This document shows, piece after piece, positions 1 through 21,926 of a DNA stretch of 21,926 bases (within the stretch, counting starts at the first letter, position 1; every line of letters starts with the position of its first letter). The notes beneath the pieces are model-generated. The model saw nothing but the letters and a program-made list of their open reading frames with translations, did not search any database and was not told the DNA's origin. The stretch is from a virus. The translations under genes and the position numbers were made by a program. The stretch spans positions 1 through 21,926 of the IMG/VR virus record IMGVR_UViG_3300019093_000584. The stretch is one strand, 5' to 3'.

Positions 1-524
1 ACCAATAAGTCCATCAAGCCGTCATTGTTCAAGTCATCCACACAGGCTCCGTGTGCAAAAGTCGATTCTGCAAATCGTTGCTCAACAAATTGTCCCGATT
101 GACCCCAATAGATTCTGCTGTAATCTCGTCGTAAATACGGACCATCAAAGAAGGCAGGAAGAAAGATATCGTTCTTACCATCATTGTCTAGGTCTACTAT
201 AAAGATTTTATGACTGCCTGGATATCTATTGGTCGGCAGGTATTGCAAGGTTCGATCAGTCAGTGTGCCATCGGTGTTTTGTATCAAGACCCAGAGGTAA
301 GCATCATCTGCTGTGCCTGACCAGCCGCCAATGACCACATCTTCTAATCCGTCACCATTCAAATCACCCACAGCGGTATTCCAGTTGCCACCATTTACGG
401 CAGATAAATCCATAACTTTATTGATGGTGGACGCTGTTGTAGTGGTAGTGGTAGATGAACCACCACCGCCTCCCCCGCAGGCCGAAAGTAGTACTAAAGT
501 ACTAATTATCAAAAACTTACGCAT
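1..524 (-). CDS. Lipoprotein with FG-GAP/VCBS-type repeats (3' end cut by window)
   Basis: This gene starts at ATG 524-522 and stays open to the window edge, giving 174 visible residues. The N-terminus is a short signal peptide (MRKFLIIST, then LVLLSAC) ending in a lipobox L-S-A-C, so Cys16 should be lipidated and the protein exported by Sec and anchored in a membrane. A run of six glycines and then six threonines forms a linker. The rest holds three D-x-[ND]-x-D-G calcium-loop repeats (DLNGDGLED, DLDNDGKND, DLNNDGLMD) spaced about 50 residues apart, as in FG-GAP/VCBS beta-propeller proteins. Such proteins usually bind partners or glycans outside the cell. A consensus promoter lies directly upstream (554-582), so the gene has its own transcription start. 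A phage lipoprotein expressed in the infected cell could block superinfection or change the surface; this is inference. The C-terminus is unseen. Confidence 0.85.
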   Translation of the reverse strand, partial: MRKFLIISTLVLLSACGGGGGGSSTTTTTTASTINKVMDLSAVNGGNWNTAVGDLNGDGLEDVVIGGWSGTADDAYLWVLIQNTDGTLTDRTLQYLPTNRYPGSHKIFIVDLDNDGKNDIFLPAFFDGPYLRRDYSRIYWGQSGQFVEQRFAESTFAHGACVDDLNNDGLMDLL

Positions 525-4335: not shown

Positions 4336-5022
4336 TTATTTCCTATCTCCAAAAAGTTGTAATAAATTCAAGAACAAGTTGATAAAGTCCATGTACAGAG
4401 TTAATGCACCACGAACTTCTGCCGAATCATCAGTTTCTACACTGAGTTCTTCACGAATCTTCTGTGTGTCATAGGCAGTGAGTCCCAGAAAGATAATGAT
4501 GGCCAGTGCGGATATCACCATCTGTAACACAGTTGATCCAATGAAGATGTTGACAATGCTGGCAATGCAGATGGCAATTAGGCCCACCAACATAAACTTG
4601 CCAACGCTGTCTAGACTCTGTTTGGTAAAGTAGCCATAACCACTCATGACCGCAAACAGAATGGCAGCACCCATGAATGCACTCGCAATCGATCCCATGG
4701 TAAACACAGCAAAGATCATTGAGAAGCTGAGACCCATCAAGGCCGCGAAACCGTGCAAACACAACTGTGCTACCGGTTTACTGGGGCTGTTGCCCAGTAC
4801 CATGGCAACACCAAATATGGCCACCAAGGGTGAAAAAATCACAATCCATTTCATCACTCCGGTAAAAAAGAATGCCAACAACTCTGGGCTGGTGCCCACC
4901 AAGTAACTCACAATCATTGATACAATCACTGCCAGGCTCATGTGTCCATACACACGGCCCATTGCGGCATTGACGGCAGGTGCATCGCGATAGGTATTAA
5001 CAGAAATAAGAGGTGCATACAT
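4336..5022 (-). CDS. Bax inhibitor-1/YccA family integral membrane protein
   Basis: BI-1 (UPF0005) proteins are seven-helix membrane proteins implicated in calcium or proton leak and in stress responses; the bacterial role is unsettled. The 228-residue protein shows about seven hydrophobic segments (near 27-45, 50-78, 87-108, 111-134, 141-160, 166-188 and 205-224). It also has the family-typical late motif LTAYDTQKIRE, whose Asp belongs to the conserved acidic pair, followed by ALTLYMDFINLFLNLL. The start is ATG 5022-5020, because AAGGAG lies eight bases upstream; a TTG one codon earlier is possible but too close to that site. The length fits bacterial homologues such as YbhL. In a phage this is host-derived cargo that may delay host membrane failure or tune lysis; that is inference. 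Confidence 0.92.
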   Translation of the reverse strand: MYAPLISVNTYRDAPAVNAAMGRVYGHMSLAVIVSMIVSYLVGTSPELLAFFFTGVMKWIVIFSPLVAIFGVAMVLGNSPSKPVAQLCLHGFAALMGLSFSMIFAVFTMGSIASAFMGAAILFAVMSGYGYFTKQSLDSVGKFMLVGLIAICIASIVNIFIGSTVLQMVISALAIIIFLGLTAYDTQKIREELSVETDDSAEVRGALTLYMDFINLFLNLLQLFGDRK

Positions 5023-5046
5023 CAAATTGTCTCCTTTAAGTATTGA

Positions 5047-7753: not shown

Positions 7754-9301
7754 TCATTCTCCAAATAAGTTGTCGTTCAATACCGGTTGTGCTTTGGGTT
7801 TTTTTTCGGGTTTGTCGTTGCCCAGGTTGCCCACAATTTCTATATGACGATTGGCCATGGTACGTGCGTTTTTGGCCTTTTTACCTTTGAATCCGCGTGT
7901 GCCCACAATCTCCATCCAGTAGCTGTCGTACTGTTCAATAATTTCTTCAGCAGTGGCTCTATCAGGAGCAGCAAATATGGCCTCCACAATATCTTCGAAC
8001 AATTCTTGTGTAGGAGCACTGTAACGCATCATGGCCGGATGCTCTCCAGCATCAAAACGTCTGTTGGCTTCTTGTACAGCAGTCAAGTGCATCCAGACAT
8101 TATGACCCATCAACAATGCATAACTGAAACTGTCCCACGATGTCCGGCCTTCTTTGCCGTTCTTGTTGACATCTCCGGGCGCATAGATACAGATATCTTT
8201 CATCTTGAGCATATCACTGATGGGGCTTTCTTGCCAAGTGTCATAAATTTTGTCAGCCACAACACCCGAGGACCACTTGCGTGTGTCTGTGGCATATCGC
8301 TTGTCATCGGCTGATGGAGCCATTCGGTACGACCATTTTGAGTCGTGTTCAAACACATTTTCAAAGTACACCTGTCCATTGGCAGTGGCGAGGAATGGGC
8401 TGGCACAATCAAAGGAAATAGTAAAAGCCGGATTAACGTATTTTCTAACTGCCCTTTGAATCACGGTGAGTAGCACAGCCCATTCCAACTTTGATGTGCC
8501 CAAAAAGTGCATCCAATCATGTATGCCTTCCTGTAACAAATTATCATAGCGCAAGGCCACTAGGCGTCGCAATACCAAGTGTACATCACACATGTTCTGT
8601 CCACCCATGCTCCACCCATCAAAATGTGTATCTGGATACTTGACAGGATCACAGTACTCTTTCATGATATCGTACCACTGGTCGGCACTGTCGTGGTTGT
8701 CACCTTGCAACACATTCAAGAATCGGGCTCCGCCGTTGTTTTTTCCTCGACGATGCCGCATAAAATATTCATTGTTGAATTTGGTGGCATCCACAGCTTC
8801 TTGCAATGTGGTAATTTGACAGGCCTTTGATGCTTTCTTGTCATGAATGACCCAAGTGGGAATATCAAGAATCATGCCATAATCAGCAACACCATCCATC
8901 CATTTGAGAACGGCATCTCTCTTGCCTTGTGCCTTGGTACAACCAGAGTTGGCACGCCAGTCACCTTCCCACAGGCCTTTGGCAATTTGGAATCCACCAG
9001 AGTCACCCAACATAAATGTTCCAGGCTCACGATTACGCACCATGTCTTCTGCCCAGTCTTGTTTGGTCAAATCTAGATTGGCGTGACCACCCGAGTACAG
9101 ACTCCACCGATATGGAAACAAGGCCTGTTGACTATTGAGCCAGTTCATTTGTTCTAGATCTGTGAGTCCTTGTGGGAAACGTGCAGGATCCACATACTGC
9201 TCGTTTCTTTGTTTGCCTATAAAGGTTGCATAGAAACCAGAAATCGCAGGTAAGAATACTGCATAGTCATTTTGTTTTGCTGTTAGATTATCTTGCTTCA
9301 T
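7754..9301 (-). CDS. dpdA: DpdA-like DNA 7-deazaguanine transglycosylase (TGT superfamily)
   Basis: DpdA exchanges guanine in DNA for a 7-deazaguanine base such as preQ0 and is related to tRNA-guanine transglycosylase (TGT). The 515-residue protein shows TGT landmarks in order. F-M-L-G-D100-S-G-G-F-Q carries the base-recognition Asp. MILDIP (D146), LNVLQG (195-200) and W-S-M-G-G (230-234) match the TGT substrate-binding Asp and glycine-rich loops. HFLGTS (265-270) and F-D298-C-A-S-P match the F-D-C-V-x-P motif with the nucleophilic Asp. The TGT C-terminal C-x-C-x2-C-H zinc site is not visible. A basic, Lys-rich tail (KKAKNARTMANR) could hold DNA. The start lies inside the sulfotransferase gene (14-base overlap) and the stop is one base before the next ATG. 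A tRNA-acting TGT is less likely in this phage context. Confidence 0.78.
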   Translation of the reverse strand: MKQDNLTAKQNDYAVFLPAISGFYATFIGKQRNEQYVDPARFPQGLTDLEQMNWLNSQQALFPYRWSLYSGGHANLDLTKQDWAEDMVRNREPGTFMLGDSGGFQIAKGLWEGDWRANSGCTKAQGKRDAVLKWMDGVADYGMILDIPTWVIHDKKASKACQITTLQEAVDATKFNNEYFMRHRRGKNNGGARFLNVLQGDNHDSADQWYDIMKEYCDPVKYPDTHFDGWSMGGQNMCDVHLVLRRLVALRYDNLLQEGIHDWMHFLGTSKLEWAVLLTVIQRAVRKYVNPAFTISFDCASPFLATANGQVYFENVFEHDSKWSYRMAPSADDKRYATDTRKWSSGVVADKIYDTWQESPISDMLKMKDICIYAPGDVNKNGKEGRTSWDSFSYALLMGHNVWMHLTAVQEANRRFDAGEHPAMMRYSAPTQELFEDIVEAIFAAPDRATAEEIIEQYDSYWMEIVGTRGFKGKKAKNARTMANRHIEIVGNLGNDKPEKKPKAQPVLNDNLFGE

Positions 9302-17094: not shown

Positions 17095-17529
17095 TTATTT
17101 TAAAACAGATTTCAACATCCACGAATGTTTACGATGTGCATCTTGACGATCAGCATAGAAGTTGCTGAGGCCGTATTCGTGTTGGTTGTCAGCAAGATTA
17201 TACACAACCTTGAACATTTCACACATCTTTTCGCTGTCGGCCAACAGTTCCTGCATCATGTCGCTGGCAGGACGAACCACTGTTTCGTCAGGGATTTGGC
17301 TCAACATGCTAAGACGTTCAAAGCTGGCAGGAGTGTAAGCACCCAACTTGCGAATGTTTTCTGCAAACGGGTCGATACTGGCATAAACTTCTTCGTAAAT
17401 ATTACCAAACAGTTCGTGATACTGCGGGAAGTTCGACCCTTCTACATTCCAGTGAAAGAATTGTGCTTTAATAAAGAAAGCATATTCACTGGCAAATGCT
17501 ACCTTACTGGCTTTGATTAAATCTTCCAT
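17095..17529 (-). CDS. dps: Dps-like ferritin (DNA protection from starvation)
   Basis: Dps forms a dodecamer that oxidises and stores iron using peroxide and can shield DNA. The 144-residue protein shows the Dps ferroxidase residues in order: H26 in FFHWNVEG, H38 in YHELF, and D53 and E57 in YASIDPFAENIRKLG. The four-helix bundle continues through the second helix pair (MMQELLADSEKMCEMF, DNQHEYGLSNFYADRQDAHRKHSWML). The lysine-rich N-terminal tail of E. coli Dps is absent. The ATG shares one base with the stop of the preceding 45-residue basic gene (TAATG), so the two may act together, for instance with the basic peptide binding DNA; this is inference. The protein could protect phage DNA or manage iron during infection. 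Confidence 0.9.
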   Translation of the reverse strand: MEDLIKASKVAFASEYAFFIKAQFFHWNVEGSNFPQYHELFGNIYEEVYASIDPFAENIRKLGAYTPASFERLSMLSQIPDETVVRPASDMMQELLADSEKMCEMFKVVYNLADNQHEYGLSNFYADRQDAHRKHSWMLKSVLK

Positions 17530-17666
17530 TATCTACCTTGTCCTCTGTATGCTTTGAAGCTGGCCCGCTTGGTTTTGTTCATGGTGCTGGTCTTGGCACG
17601 TGTGCAGGCCTGACTGGTCTTTTTGACCACACGTTGAATTTTTGATGTTGTTGCAATTTTTGCCAT
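17529..17666 (-). CDS. Small, strongly basic protein, 45 residues
   Basis: ATG 17666-17664 preceded by AAGGAG (7-base spacing) opens a 45-residue frame ending in TAA 17531-17529. The protein (MAKIATTSKIQRVVKKTSQA...) carries about a dozen Lys and Arg residues and only polar or small residues otherwise, with no acidic residue at all. It should bind nucleic acid or the acidic face of a partner. A good ribosome-binding site and the coupled TAATG junction with dps support it as real. It resembles no family I can name. Confidence 0.72.
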   Translation of the reverse strand: MAKIATTSKIQRVVKKTSQACTRAKTSTMNKTKRASFKAYRGQGR

Positions 17667-17680
17667 AGTTGATCTCCTTG

Positions 17681-20600
17681 TTAAATGTCGTATCCTGCGT
17701 GACGCATCTGCATTAAATGACGCTCAATTGACTCGTCTAGGTCTTCCTTGACTGAACCTTGATTTTGTGTTTTTAATATCTTGCCCTGGAATCGTATTAC
17801 CATATTTGAAAAATACACATCATTGGCTTCCAAACGATCGGTTACAAAATCCGATGCCTGATACATTTGTGATTTGGCATCACCTTTGAAACGTCCTGTC
17901 AAATCAAATTCTTTAGAGTCACCATCAATGAATACTGTGACCATCAATTTGTTTGGATCTGCCTGATCAGCGGCCTGTGCCATACCGCCCACGGCAGCAC
18001 CAGCAGCCACAGCACCTGCACCTCGTAGAAATCCTCTACGGCTGATGTCTTCGTTCATGTCCATGTCTCTAGTCAAGGGCTGTTGATGCTTGGGTTGCAG
18101 TAGAGCCTGACGCCGTTTGTTGGTGTGTTGACCGCCTGCACCACTTGAACGTTTGGCAGCCAATATGGCGTGTCCAGGATCTCTGGGCTTGGGCATCTTT
18201 GGTGTGGCACGACCCATGCTTTCCGCCACACCTTGCTTATTTAGAAGTGCATCTTGATATGCTCTTGTAGCAGGACCTAATACACTATGTACCTCATTGG
18301 CAAACCCTGAAGAATATTGTTCTTTGCCACTTGAAATCACATCTGCCCATCTAACAACGCCATCTAAATAGTTAGACCATTTTTGTGTCGCAGGATTATC
18401 TTTAAGTTGCAATGCAACATCTTTTACTTGTTGAGCAAAATATCGAGGATTTTGTGGTGCTTGTCTAGATGCGGCCATCTTTAAGATATCAGTCAATCCA
18501 GCCAATACATCCGAGTTTTCATTAATTGCATAGCCTTCCGCCATACCTTTTTTAGTATCAAACTGTGCCACAGGCTTGCCATTGACCAGAGCCATGATAG
18601 GGGCGCCCGGCATCTTGGCTTGTATAAATTTAACATCAGGATGCTGTTGTTGAATGCTGGCCATCCAGGATTTACTATCTTGGCCTGTGCTTTCTTTTAC
18701 ACCTTTTCTAGTATAAGTTGGAAGGGTTGCAACATATGCTTGCATCTCATCTCTGGCCGCTTTGCGATGATCTATACCTGTTTGTAAAGCCTTATTGAAC
18801 TCTGGATTGAACTTGCCTGTCCCAACAGGCTTGACACCGCCTGTGCTATTGTTGTTGCCATCAGTACCTTGCTCTACTTTTACCCAAGACAGTGTTTTAC
18901 CATCGGGCAACGTGGCACGACATGGTCCGTCAATCATTTTTGCACAAACAATTTTAGCGTCTGGAAATTTAGTTTGAACTAACTGTAGCCATCGTTGTTG
19001 AGTAAGACCTTTGTCATTGACTGCACGACCGATACCAGTTTCACCTAACTTCTTTGGTTCAACATCAGTTGCATCATCATTCTTATAACCCAGTGCTGGT
19101 GGTTTTTTATATGGTAATTGTTGGCTAGTGTGCCATTGTTGTGGTCTAGTGAAACCCGGCTTGAGTGGTGAACCGGTATCTTGGTCAAAGTCATCTTCGG
19201 GTTCTGCAGTGGGTCGCTGTGGGCGACCGGGTCTTTGTGGGCGTGTAGGACGTTCAGTATTGAATTGTTCTCTTTCTGCTTGACGCATATTGAATTCGGC
19301 TTTCATTTTAATCAATTCATGCGTGTCGGCATGTAGAATCTTTTCCATGTCTTGCATGTGTGACATTTGTAGTGTACGTAATTCTTGGGTGTATTGTTTA
19401 TCAATCTTTGCCATCTCATGTTTACGTTCGGCTTCTGTATTTGCTTTTTCCCATGCAAATCTTTCCATCTCCATTTTTTCTTTATGAAGTTGTTGACGCT
19501 GTTCTTCAAAGTCTTGTTTAGCCTGACGTTGCAGTTCTCTACGCCCGCTTGCACCTATGTTTAATTCATCTTCCTGATTTTGTGCTTTTACTCTTGCGGC
19601 GTGTAGAATATCATCAAGTTGATCTGGTGTCTTATTCAATGTGTTGTAACTATCGATAATTCCGGCTTTAACTAACGCATCACGCTTTTGATCTCTAGTC
19701 ATCTCATCCCAACCTTGTAATGCAGAATGGTTGACACCCTCCGCCACACCTTGCATTAATCCAGCTTTTTGCATCGCTGCCGCTGTAGATGGGCCAACTT
19801 TCATAGCAGTGTCTACTATTTTGCCATCCTTTATTAGAAGATAACGTGCCGGACTTCTAATAATAGCAGATCCATTGCTGCCACGATTTAAGGTGTAGCT
19901 TATACCACTTTGTGTATCTAAAACTGCGTTGACTGTGTGTCCGGCAACATCTATGGTTGTTAAAACAAATCCGTTCCCTAATTCTTGCTGTTGATCAGCT
20001 TGTACTTTACTTGCCGCGCCAACACCAGCGGCTCCCAACGCGGTTGCACCCAATCCTCGTAAGAATCCTCTACGATCAATTTCATCTAACTGATCTTGAG
20101 ACTCAAATGGTGTCACAGGTTTCTTTTTAACTCTGGCAACTCCGCCTGCGGGGCTAACTCGCGTGGCCAATCTATTGTTGCCTAGGCTTTTGGTTTCTCT
20201 GTCGTCACGCTTGAAGTTTGGATTTTTGTTGTAGAAGTCTTGACTTTGCTTGTTCATCCGGCTAGTGTCTTTTTCACCTTCCGCCACACCTTTATCGTCC
20301 GGTTTAATGAATTGTATTTTGCGGCGCATTCTCATAGCATCAATTGCTTCACCTGGATCGTGTTGCCATACTATCTTACCCGTACCATCAATAATTTTCC
20401 AATCAGCATCAAATGACTTAGGATCAGCGGTCCGTAAAAACTCTATTTCCTCTTTGGCTTGATCAAAAGTTGAAAATTCCTCTATAAATTCATTGCTAAT
20501 ATACATTTTGAATGGCCCAAATCCACCTTCACCGGGCGCAAATTCGTTCAGTGAACCTTCCGACACACCTTGCTGTTTATGTCGCTTGGCATCGTTCTCG

Positions 20601-20935
20601 CCTTGCTTGATGGTGGCCTTGACAATGCCCTTGAAACGTTTGTTGCCGCGTTCAACGTCACCACGTGCATCAGCAGCCGACGCATCTGTACCTGCGGCCT
20701 TTTTGTAGTCGCCTAGAATTTTGTTGCTGATCTCGTCCAACTGTACATCACGAGCTTCAGCAACTACACCGTTGTTGCCCACGCCCATCATTGTGACCGG
20801 TTTCTTTTTACTTTCCCAACGACTGGTGCCTGAGCCAATGGGACTGGCTGCACTCTGCACTTGGTTGTCCATGACACCTGTGGTTCCTGGTGCCGGAGGT
20901 CTCTTGGGTGCTTCAAACAAGTTATACAAATTCAT
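17681..20935 (-). CDS. Giant modular protein with repeated G-V-x-E-G/S junctions
   Basis: No overall family is recognised. ATG 20935-20933 (MNLYNLFEAPKRPP) starts one base after the previous stop with AGGA upstream; an upstream in-frame start would overlap that gene by 59 bases. The 1084 residues comprise unlike segments separated by near-identical motifs: QGVSEG (122-127), KGVAEG (215-220), QGVAEG (395-400), KGVKES (744-749), KGMAEG (796-801), QGVAES (901-906) and, weaker, GSVKED (1060-1065). Segments include two twin-arginine-like stretches, RRGFLRGLG (288-296) and RRGFLRGAG (966-974), each followed by an Ala/Gly-rich run; a charged coiled coil (about 463-560); a Pro-Arg linker (561-576); and two related 48-residue units (643-690 and 751-798). 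Similarity to T4 prohead-protease sites (hydrophobic-x-Glu before Gly, Ser or Ala) suggests a virion polyprotein; this is inference. Confidence 0.8.
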   Translation of the reverse strand: MNLYNLFEAPKRPPAPGTTGVMDNQVQSAASPIGSGTSRWESKKKPVTMMGVGNNGVVAEARDVQLDEISNKILGDYKKAAGTDASAADARGDVERGNKRFKGIVKATIKQGENDAKRHKQQGVSEGSLNEFAPGEGGFGPFKMYISNEFIEEFSTFDQAKEEIEFLRTADPKSFDADWKIIDGTGKIVWQHDPGEAIDAMRMRRKIQFIKPDDKGVAEGEKDTSRMNKQSQDFYNKNPNFKRDDRETKSLGNNRLATRVSPAGGVARVKKKPVTPFESQDQLDEIDRRGFLRGLGATALGAAGVGAASKVQADQQQELGNGFVLTTIDVAGHTVNAVLDTQSGISYTLNRGSNGSAIIRSPARYLLIKDGKIVDTAMKVGPSTAAAMQKAGLMQGVAEGVNHSALQGWDEMTRDQKRDALVKAGIIDSYNTLNKTPDQLDDILHAARVKAQNQEDELNIGASGRRELQRQAKQDFEEQRQQLHKEKMEMERFAWEKANTEAERKHEMAKIDKQYTQELRTLQMSHMQDMEKILHADTHELIKMKAEFNMRQAEREQFNTERPTRPQRPGRPQRPTAEPEDDFDQDTGSPLKPGFTRPQQWHTSQQLPYKKPPALGYKNDDATDVEPKKLGETGIGRAVNDKGLTQQRWLQLVQTKFPDAKIVCAKMIDGPCRATLPDGKTLSWVKVEQGTDGNNNSTGGVKPVGTGKFNPEFNKALQTGIDHRKAARDEMQAYVATLPTYTRKGVKESTGQDSKSWMASIQQQHPDVKFIQAKMPGAPIMALVNGKPVAQFDTKKGMAEGYAINENSDVLAGLTDILKMAASRQAPQNPRYFAQQVKDVALQLKDNPATQKWSNYLDGVVRWADVISSGKEQYSSGFANEVHSVLGPATRAYQDALLNKQGVAESMGRATPKMPKPRDPGHAILAAKRSSGAGGQHTNKRRQALLQPKHQQPLTRDMDMNEDISRRGFLRGAGAVAAGAAVGGMAQAADQADPNKLMVTVFIDGDSKEFDLTGRFKGDAKSQMYQASDFVTDRLEANDVYFSNMVIRFQGKILKTQNQGSVKEDLDESIERHLMQMRHAGYDI

Positions 20936-21530
20936 TTTATACAGTTCCTGGTGGTTTGGCGGCAGCGGCCTTTTCTTGTTGATTGGCCTTGTCAATCATC
21001 ATTTTCAATGATGTGGCCATCTGCGGATTCTTCATAACATTGGCCAATTGCGGTGCTAGTGTACTGGCAATTTTTTGATCAGCAGGATTTAATTGTGTAC
21101 CAGTATCAGCTTTGGTCATGGTGTTAGTGGCCTTGGTAACATCCAGTCCTGGTACACTGGTCTTTAGTTTTGCTAGACTCTGTTTGAGTGCTGCCGCGGC
21201 CTTGGGATCAACTGGTTGTGCAGGCGTAGTCTGTGCTGGATTACCAGCCGCAGGTGCTGTGGGCTGTGGAGGATTGTTGGCGCCCAGTTCAGTTATTTTG
21301 TCAGGTGACTTTTTGTAATTTTGTTTCTCTATGCCCTGACGGATATCATCTTCAAGATCATTCACAATCAAATGTAGCAGTTCTTTGGCAGCACCGTCGC
21401 CCCAGGTTAGACTTTTGACAATGGCGTGTGCGCCTTCTTTACCAACTCGGTCAACTATGTTTGTCAGTAGTTCTTTGGTCAAATGCGGCAGGCCTTCTGG
21501 ATCACCTTCGTTTTCCTTTACACCAAGTTC
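17744..21530. repeat. Dispersed short DNA boxes encoding the G-V-x-E-G/S junctions
   Basis: On the plus strand a box close to TTCCGCCACACCTTGC recurs at 18221-18235, 18536-18550 (CCATACC variant), 19739-19754, 20279-20293 and 20558-20573 (CGACACACC variant). More degenerate copies lie at 18692-18706 (TTCTTTTACACCTTT), 17744-17761 and, in the adjoining gene, around 21512-21530. Spacing is irregular (about 150 to 1050 bases) and flanks are unrelated, so this is not a tandem repeat. The DNA is conserved beyond what the protein motif needs in several copies, which would allow recombination between modules. Confidence 0.75.
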
Positions 21531-21926
21531 TTTTTCCCGACGATACTCCTCAGGACCGCGGTAGACTTTTTCTTTGGGAGCCTGTGCCTGTTGCTGTTGT
21601 CTACGAGCCAGCAGTTTGGCAGAGAATTCGTCTGCCGGTGCTGTTTTATTTTTGGCAGGCGTCTTGGTACTAAATCCAAATATACCTTCGCCTAGACCTT
21701 CTAGTTCTTCTGCGGGCCAGGATTGGTAACTGTTACCATTCACGTCACCGGCACGTACCACAAACACACCGCCGTTGTCGTAGCCGCCTTCGTCTTCGCC
21801 AATTTCCCAGCCCATTCGAGCCAAGACCTTTTCAATTTGCATTTGTATGGCTTCGTCGCCGGCCCACCACATTCTAGCGTACTTGTGCAAGGCATCGTCT
21901 TCACCACCGCTGTCACCGTCATCGGC
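20937..21926 (-). CDS. Probable structural protein, 5' end outside window
   Basis: The frame is open to the window edge: 12 codons upstream of the TTG at 21890 continue without a stop (ADDGDSGGEDDA), so the true start lies beyond 21926. The visible 329 residues have three parts. The first is a compact N-terminal region (LHKYARMWWAGDEAIQMQIEKVLARMGWEI...) that looks like a small domain. The second is a charged linker containing ELGVKENEGDPEG, a variant of the G-V-x-E junction motif of the next gene, followed by a helical segment (LTKELLTNIVDRVGKEGAHAIVKSL...). The third is an Ala/Pro/Gln-rich low-complexity stretch (PPQPTAPAAGNPAQTTPAQP) and a helical C-terminus ending in AAAAKPPGTV. The stop is one base before the next ATG. 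The shared motif and spacing link it to the 1084-residue protein as a possible common virion system. Confidence 0.75.
   Translation of the reverse strand, partial: ADDGDSGGEDDALHKYARMWWAGDEAIQMQIEKVLARMGWEIGEDEGGYDNGGVFVVRAGDVNGNSYQSWPAEELEGLGEGIFGFSTKTPAKNKTAPADEFSAKLLARRQQQQAQAPKEKVYRGPEEYRREKELGVKENEGDPEGLPHLTKELLTNIVDRVGKEGAHAIVKSLTWGDGAAKELLHLIVNDLEDDIRQGIEKQNYKKSPDKITELGANNPPQPTAPAAGNPAQTTPAQPVDPKAAAALKQSLAKLKTSVPGLDVTKATNTMTKADTGTQLNPADQKIASTLAPQLANVMKNPQMATSLKMMIDKANQQEKAAAAKPPGTV

Follow-up and report, generated by a model that had tools for sequence, protein, structure and literature searches.

A modular phage ORF punctuated by hydrophobic-x-Glu sites: a candidate polyprotein of T4-type internal head proteins

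The question raised by this locus is what kind of product a phage obtains from a 1084-residue ORF whose dissimilar segments are set apart by repeats of one short motif. The ORF lies in the window, the whole stretch of DNA analysed, which is a 21.9 kb virus record and probably a fragment. Polyproteins in the style of RNA viruses are not usually associated with tailed phages. A previous sequence-only reading of this DNA proposed a polyprotein, an interpretation that appears right in kind, stronger than originally put, and is well supported by the evidence from sequence. The ORF probably codes for a chain of internal head proteins of the T4 type, which would be cut by a gp21-type protease and whose units would be exchanged as in-frame cassettes. 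The shuffling of cassettes, the conservation of the linker as DNA, boundaries other than GVAE and a second modular ORF upstream are additions to the earlier reading.

The program-made ORF list places the gene start at a TTG at 20995. The ORF check in the window supports an ATG at 20935, with the stop codon ending at 17681; this ATG is the better start because it yields the amino terminus MNLYNLFEA that is common to locus L005. The second modular ORF is found directly upstream, open at the window edge, and has units in common with L018 and L079. Relatives of the unit at its start (KYARMWWAGDE...GGVFVVRAGDVNGNSY) are found in L018, L033 and L045, beside other neighbours. Neither the window DNA nor the 1084-residue protein has a direct match in annotated phages. 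The genes of the locus are as follows (in all features an arrow marks a proposed cut).

17681..20935, minus strand: putative modular polyprotein ORF, 1084 aa, MNLYNLFEAPKR...MRHAGYDI, defined by homologues and unit structure.
20937..21926, minus strand: second modular ORF, directly upstream, open at the window edge, containing GLGE↓G and GVKE↓N.
17095..17529, minus strand: Dps/ferritin-like gene (PF00210), a marker of the polyprotein locus in relatives by synteny.

A short, strongly basic ORF (MAKIATTSKIQRVVKKTSQACTRAKTSTMNKTKR...), possibly coding for a DNA-binding peptide, occupies 17530–17666 between the modular ORF and the Dps-like gene.

The motif G-[VM]-x-E-[GSNADT] is present at six sites of the ORF (aa 123, 216, 396, 745, 797 and 902), all of which read G-[V/M]-x-E-[G/S] within a linker of the form [Q/K]-G-[V/M]-x-E↓[G/S]. 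Shuffling the residues of the ORF gives a mean of 0.195 sites and a maximum of 4, six or more being found in 0 of 20,000 shuffles. The seven G-V-x-E-G/S motifs originally counted are thus reduced to six strict ones (shuffle mean 0.2); the seventh, GSVKED (aa 1060–1065, S-V-K-E-D), fits just the looser hydrophobic-x-E↓small rule. Sites obeying that rule in any form number 13 in the ORF, against 5.6 ± 2.2 expected.

20555..20569, minus strand: linker 1, GVSE↓G, aa 123–127; motif at DNA and protein level, pLDDT <50.
20276..20290, minus strand: linker 2, GVAE↓G, aa 216–220; motif at DNA and protein level, pLDDT.
19736..19750, minus strand: linker 3, GVAE↓G, aa 396–400; motif at DNA and protein level, pLDDT.
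18689..18703, minus strand: linker 4, GVKE↓S, aa 745–749; protein motif, pLDDT.
18533..18547, minus strand: linker 5, GMAE↓G, aa 797–801; motif at DNA and protein level, pLDDT.
18218..18232, minus strand: linker 6, GVAE↓S, aa 902–906; motif at DNA and protein level, pLDDT.
17741..17755, minus strand: linker 7, SVKE↓D, aa 1061–1065; weaker match, pLDDT <50 at 1052–1063.

The linker Glu is nearly invariant (97–100%). It is kept in 147 of 152 copies in a codon-drift test, where one codon was left free with the other five near consensus and the copies selected by the search itself were removed, and in 33 of 33 in loci found by protein similarity alone. Two positions ahead of Glu, 172 of 176 copies have V, M, I or L. 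The residue in between varies (A in just 71%), the upstream Gln is present in 56%, and Glu is followed by G in 45% and otherwise mostly by A, D, E, S or N. This pattern, in which Glu and the hydrophobic residue are held and their neighbours drift as such a protease would allow, bears out the likeness to gp21 sites noticed in the sequence-only reading, and the hydrophobic-x-Glu↓small linker would belong to the specificity class of T4 gp21 sites. The T4 cut site is given as L/I-X-E in the available text of PMC9026906. At the linker's hydrophobic position V or M outnumbers L/I, and V-x-E is considered within the gp21 class yet not identical to it because T4 gp21 favours L/I and the capsid protein of this phage group apparently carries L-x-E. 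Several hydrophobic-x-E sites fall inside units (e.g., LNE↓F, IEE), so that sequence alone cannot fix which sites are cut; the true cut sites are probably ten or more, including an LDE↓I that immediately precedes an internal twin-arginine (Tat) signal.

It is very improbable that the motif is an ordinary flexible linker, or a protein-binding motif, of a multidomain structural protein unrelated to gp21. The sites do lie in predicted disordered stretches, as would those of any linker, but generic linkers do not hold an invariant Glu two residues past a hydrophobic residue, and stand-alone homologues in T4-like phages feature the same type of site where a targeting sequence ends. All seven linkers fall within, or border on, stretches with pLDDT <50 in an AF2 model of the ORF built from eight sequences, some of these stretches being short gaps between more confident segments (743–753, 795–810, 1052–1063). 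The model is weak (mean pLDDT 51) and 593 of its 1084 residues are below 50, so that the linker pLDDT lends mild support only.

The segments between motifs were described as unrelated in the sequence-only reading, and comparison across loci agrees: several unrelated domains are present per chain, with units found singly in differing contexts. Homology blocks terminate no more than 3 aa from a GxxE site at 13.2% of their ends, versus 3.6% for rotated sites (0 of 200 rotations as high), a 3.7-fold enrichment that is descriptive because the blocks are non-independent and the shared motif lengthens alignments. Their right-hand ends peak exactly after Glu, and other hydrophobic-x-E sites are likewise enriched at block ends. 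Fourteen whole-segment insertions were found between relatives, most of them with Glu↓small-type sites at both edges as judged by eye. Boundaries that the sequence-only reading did not include are likely at the following sites.

20729..20740, minus strand: likely extra boundary LDE↓I, aa 66–69; the homology of the N-terminal unit to other phages starts here.
20078..20089, minus strand: likely extra boundary LDE↓I, aa 283–286; directly before a Tat signal, where homology to G014 (L337) starts.
19037..19048, minus strand: likely extra boundary LGE↓T, aa 630–633; L002 homology ends and L075 homology begins, few residues apart.
18047..18058, minus strand: likely extra boundary MNE↓D, aa 960–963; before the second Tat signal.

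The Tat unit of the window matches G014 from residue 285, at LDE↓I, and the segment preceding it matches other phages. DUF6321, a unit that is also found alone, usually follows hydrophobic-x-Glu↓S/T/A directly: hydrophobic-x-E is present no more than 10 aa upstream in 47 of 61 distinct contexts, usually at −1/−2, versus a background of 15%. Single-unit DUF6321 proteins read MKTYKEFLFE↓S (MKTYKEFLFE↓S-PAW) and MKSFKAFITE↓T. The contexts that lack the site are mostly of the form KKT-AAW; these exceptions and the starts that read MAKT-AAW, which are very short, are probably from viruses of other types. Within the 1084-residue ORF, the mini-units at 18866–19018 (aa 640–690, RWLQLVQTKFPDAKIVCAKM...) and 18551–18688 (aa 750–795, SWMASIQQQHPDVKFIQAKM...) resemble a duplicated pair that has since diverged.

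Conservation of the linker extends to its DNA. The nucleotide sequence (AGCAAGGTGTGGCGGAAGGC) is maintained over about 20 bp with sharp edges, rare codons included, and is matched five times in the window versus 0.11 expected (copies at, e.g., 20276–20297, 19736–19757 and 18218–18239). Silent positions are conserved, GCG reaching 72% in the linker versus 7% in the same ORFs and GTG 68% versus 20%. The skew is repeated in loci found via DUF6321 and not chosen by motif (10 of 13 and 11 of 14), and extends to codons where the amino acid changes. Since the linker is conserved as a sharp element of this kind, the units act like in-frame cassettes. Most simply, linkers would have spread together with cassettes through recombination; common descent alone, or codon effects on translation, could also account for the conservation of the DNA. 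A freely inserting DNA element is disfavoured because 257 of 261 near-matches are in frame within open frames. A cellular origin of the motif was considered as well: 257 Gb of cellular genomes have 26 exact 18-mer matches, all single and none repeated, which makes them chance-like.

These same properties of the DNA, namely its sharp edges over some 20 bp and codons that are skewed even at changed amino acids, would be expected if linkers were scars or recombination sites that undergo no proteolysis, the product being a single multidomain injected "polyvalent" protein; large multidomain injected proteins do exist, as described in the available text of PMC5512222. This explanation is nevertheless improbable. 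The Glu is invariant while the codons adjoining it drift, boundaries are found also at hydrophobic-x-E sites with unrelated DNA, and a free DNA element would not need to be in frame in open frames as the near-matches are. The chain would be directed to the head by its amino terminus.

20909..20935, minus strand: capsid-targeting-like N-terminus MNLYNLFE↓A, ending in a predicted cut site, identified by N-terminus comparison.

Amino termini that resemble a capsid-targeting sequence (CTS) and end in hydrophobic-x-Glu are found in 59 of 99 ORFs of this kind (60%), versus 189 of 1211 genes (16%). Other such ORFs start with MRAQEFITE↓G, MKTTDFITE↓N or MRFTEFISE↓D, to be compared with MKTYQEFIAE↓A in T4 IPII and IPIII. 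The N-terminus would probably serve to target the entire chain to the core of the prohead. Genome-wide, CTS-like N-termini exceed the number in shuffled N-termini clearly in some genomes only (G011, 27 genes versus 14; G008, 12 versus 5; G007, 21 versus 10), an excess that suggests further internal head proteins elsewhere in these three genomes.

The protease is encoded by relatives of the window. PF03420 (gp21) is found in 7 of the 24 long records searched and gp23 in the same seven, so that the search for a gp21-type protease in carrier genomes, which the sequence-only reading had proposed as a check, gave the answer it anticipated. The T4 portal is present in those seven records and in one more, whose sequence breaks off within the portal gene. 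Every record that spans the head operon thus has gp21, gp23 and portal together. In the five genomes inspected in full, this operon runs from portal through a small gene, a gene for a gp67-like acidic protein, gp21 and a gp22-like gene to gp23, where roles other than those of gp20, gp21 and gp23 were assigned by reading. The expectation that other substrates share V-x-E is borne out in part: the capsid protein of relatives has a likely site of the same class, with Leu instead of Val (L-x-E↓N/S). No gp21 is found in the window's own record, a 21.9 kb fragment. Two records of 262–266 kb carry the ORF and no gp21; both lack portal and capsid genes as well. G014 starts immediately beyond its relative's head operon, and in G007 most of the matches listed are away from the head operon; both are partial genomes of the same phage group. 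The sheath family PF04984 has no match in any record and is uninformative.

The gene order of the window is common to G011, G015, G002, G010 and, partly, G008; among the seven motif-bearing records that span the head operon and have gp21, five share this order partly or fully. In G011, G015, G002 and the window the modular ORF is beside a Dps-like gene near DNA polymerase, and its units differ. Judged by capsid and polymerase, the closest isolates belong to the giant T4-like phages, e.g., Sinorhizobium phage Phosso, Vibrio phage 2.275.O and PA5oct. The collinear block includes GTP cyclohydrolase I (1093–1824, PF01227) and a conserved 515-aa protein (7754–9301); related isolates have 7-deazaguanine genes near the polymerase, which makes DNA modification plausible. 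Homologues in G015 are found for a membrane protein at 4336–5025 that reads like the Bax-inhibitor-1 family (assigned by reading) and for an FG-GAP repeat protein with a lipoprotein-like N-terminus that runs off the window (3–524).

ORFs of this kind are numerous. The exact 16-mer AAGGTGTGGCGGAAGG is present in at least 120 virus stretches, many with 2–4 copies, and these stretches and other loci together hold at least 144 ORFs with the motif and more than 300 motifs. The [QKE]GV[AS]E form is restricted to one to three ORFs per whole genome. Units between motifs have a median length of 88 aa, and 31 groups of internal units recur across different ORFs and neighbourhoods. Pfam matches across 62 such ORFs include DUF6321, GNAT, GP88, Tat signals, DUF5872, cytidine deaminase and ParB-like families, with no peptidase family among them; among the PHROG matches of units are a phage protein kinase and virion structural proteins. 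Small, charged units of no known family are common, and most units have no known fold.

The abundance of such small, charged units would also suit a gp21-cut chain that merely fills the core or scaffold, in the manner of T4 gp22, gp67 and gp68, and whose fragments mostly exit the head and do nothing in the host; in T4, core proteins undergo cutting at numerous sites and most of the fragments leave, according to the available text of PMC9026906. A filler role is unlikely, since the gp22 and gp67-like genes stand separately in the head operon, the units vary from phage to phage, with some matches to enzyme or effector families (GNAT, cytidine deaminase, ParB-like, a phage protein-kinase PHROG, Tat signals), and single-unit relatives show the layout of T4 internal proteins. 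We infer that the units more probably act as delivered cargo. Two of them in the window carry Tat signals.

19997..20080, minus strand: internal twin-arginine signal peptide IDRRGFLRGLGATALGAAGVGAASKVQA, aa 286–313, by sequence.
17972..18046, minus strand: second internal Tat signal ISRRGFLRGAGAVAAGAAVGGMAQA, aa 964–988; Pfam PF10518, E 2.7e-7.

The Pfam TAT_signal match falls on the second copy (aa 964–988) and not on that at aa 286–313. In four cases, a small sample, the Tat signal starts few residues after [LM]-x-E, and a cut there would therefore expose the signal. Export of Tat-bearing cargo is speculative.

In the sequence of events proposed for the polyprotein, the gp21-type protease would cut after the Glu of hydrophobic-x-Glu↓small during head maturation, at GVSE↓G, GVAE↓G, GMAE↓G and GVKE↓S and also at LDE↓I, LGE↓T and MNE↓D. 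Roughly 8–12 small proteins would be freed, stay with the DNA and enter the host at infection. Phages would swap and duplicate the in-frame units through recombination at the shared linker DNA, and gene content at the locus would consequently change fast. A more far-reaching version, which we regard as possible but rather doubtful, is that the ~20-bp linker is at once recombination and protease site, so that any captured unit would be translated, targeted to the head, released and injected, and some Tat-bearing cargo, exposed by the head protease, would be exported to the periplasm of the infected cell. If cleavage holds, the punctuation rule would allow part of the injected protein repertoire of a large uncultured group of giant phages to be read directly from sequence, as a list of separate candidate effectors and anti-defence proteins, and would show how phages build and exchange such cargo quickly.

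No phage polyprotein with such punctuation was found described in the literature searched, in line with the claim of the sequence-only reading that none was known. The same units also occur in modular hypothetical proteins encoded in the structural gene region of cultured cyanophages (L218 2357–3172; L217 1445–3301). Those of P-SSM2 (PSSM2_123) and Bellamy (gp123) share units such as CYYKVKSRY... and DUF6321 strung in one gene, often with hydrophobic-x-E before a unit; they differ by heterogeneous linkers in place of the GVAEG punctuation and are annotated as hypothetical. In phiKZ and SPN3US many head proteins are cut after Glu by a gp21-related protease, some of them multiply, and are ejected (PMC9026906, PMC10052503). 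Their motifs are S/A-x-E or A-x-E, the SPN3US cuts remove N-terminal propeptides, and the available parts of these sources describe no chain of exchanged units. The defence proteins DarA, DdrB and DarB of P1 are targeted to the capsid and carried into the host, and two of them, DarA and DdrB, undergo proteolytic processing (PMC9024508, PMC5512222); the P1 proteins are few and large, and repeated punctuation or cassette exchange is absent from what is available of these descriptions.

Single T4-like internal proteins and "polyvalent proteins" are the close precedents. Polyvalent proteins, which are encoded by phages and by conjugative elements (Iyer et al. 2017, PMC5512222), are also long and multidomain, are thought to be delivered with DNA and have exchangeable effector-like domains; the available text draws an explicit analogy to viral polyproteins and proposes release via embedded peptidase domains, which are often present. 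The ORFs studied here have no peptidase domain among the 62 scanned, and their separators match a head protease that would act in trans. T4 IPI, IPII, IPIII and Alt likewise have an N-terminal targeting sequence that ends in hydrophobic-x-Glu, and the T4 precedent combines L/I-X-E cutting with a CTS (available text of PMC9026906). The gp21-type protease and gp22/gp23 operon of that system are also found in the window's relatives, and stand-alone units have the same layout. The T4 proteins have a gene each, are cut at the N-terminus (Alt also at the C-terminus) and carry L/I-x-E sites, whereas here many units share one ORF with internal sites that are mostly V-x-E. The novelty lies in the way that head-protease punctuation, a chain of many units and the exchange of cassettes at the linker come together. 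Until cleavage is shown, the ORF is best called a variant of the T4 internal-protein and polyvalent-protein theme.
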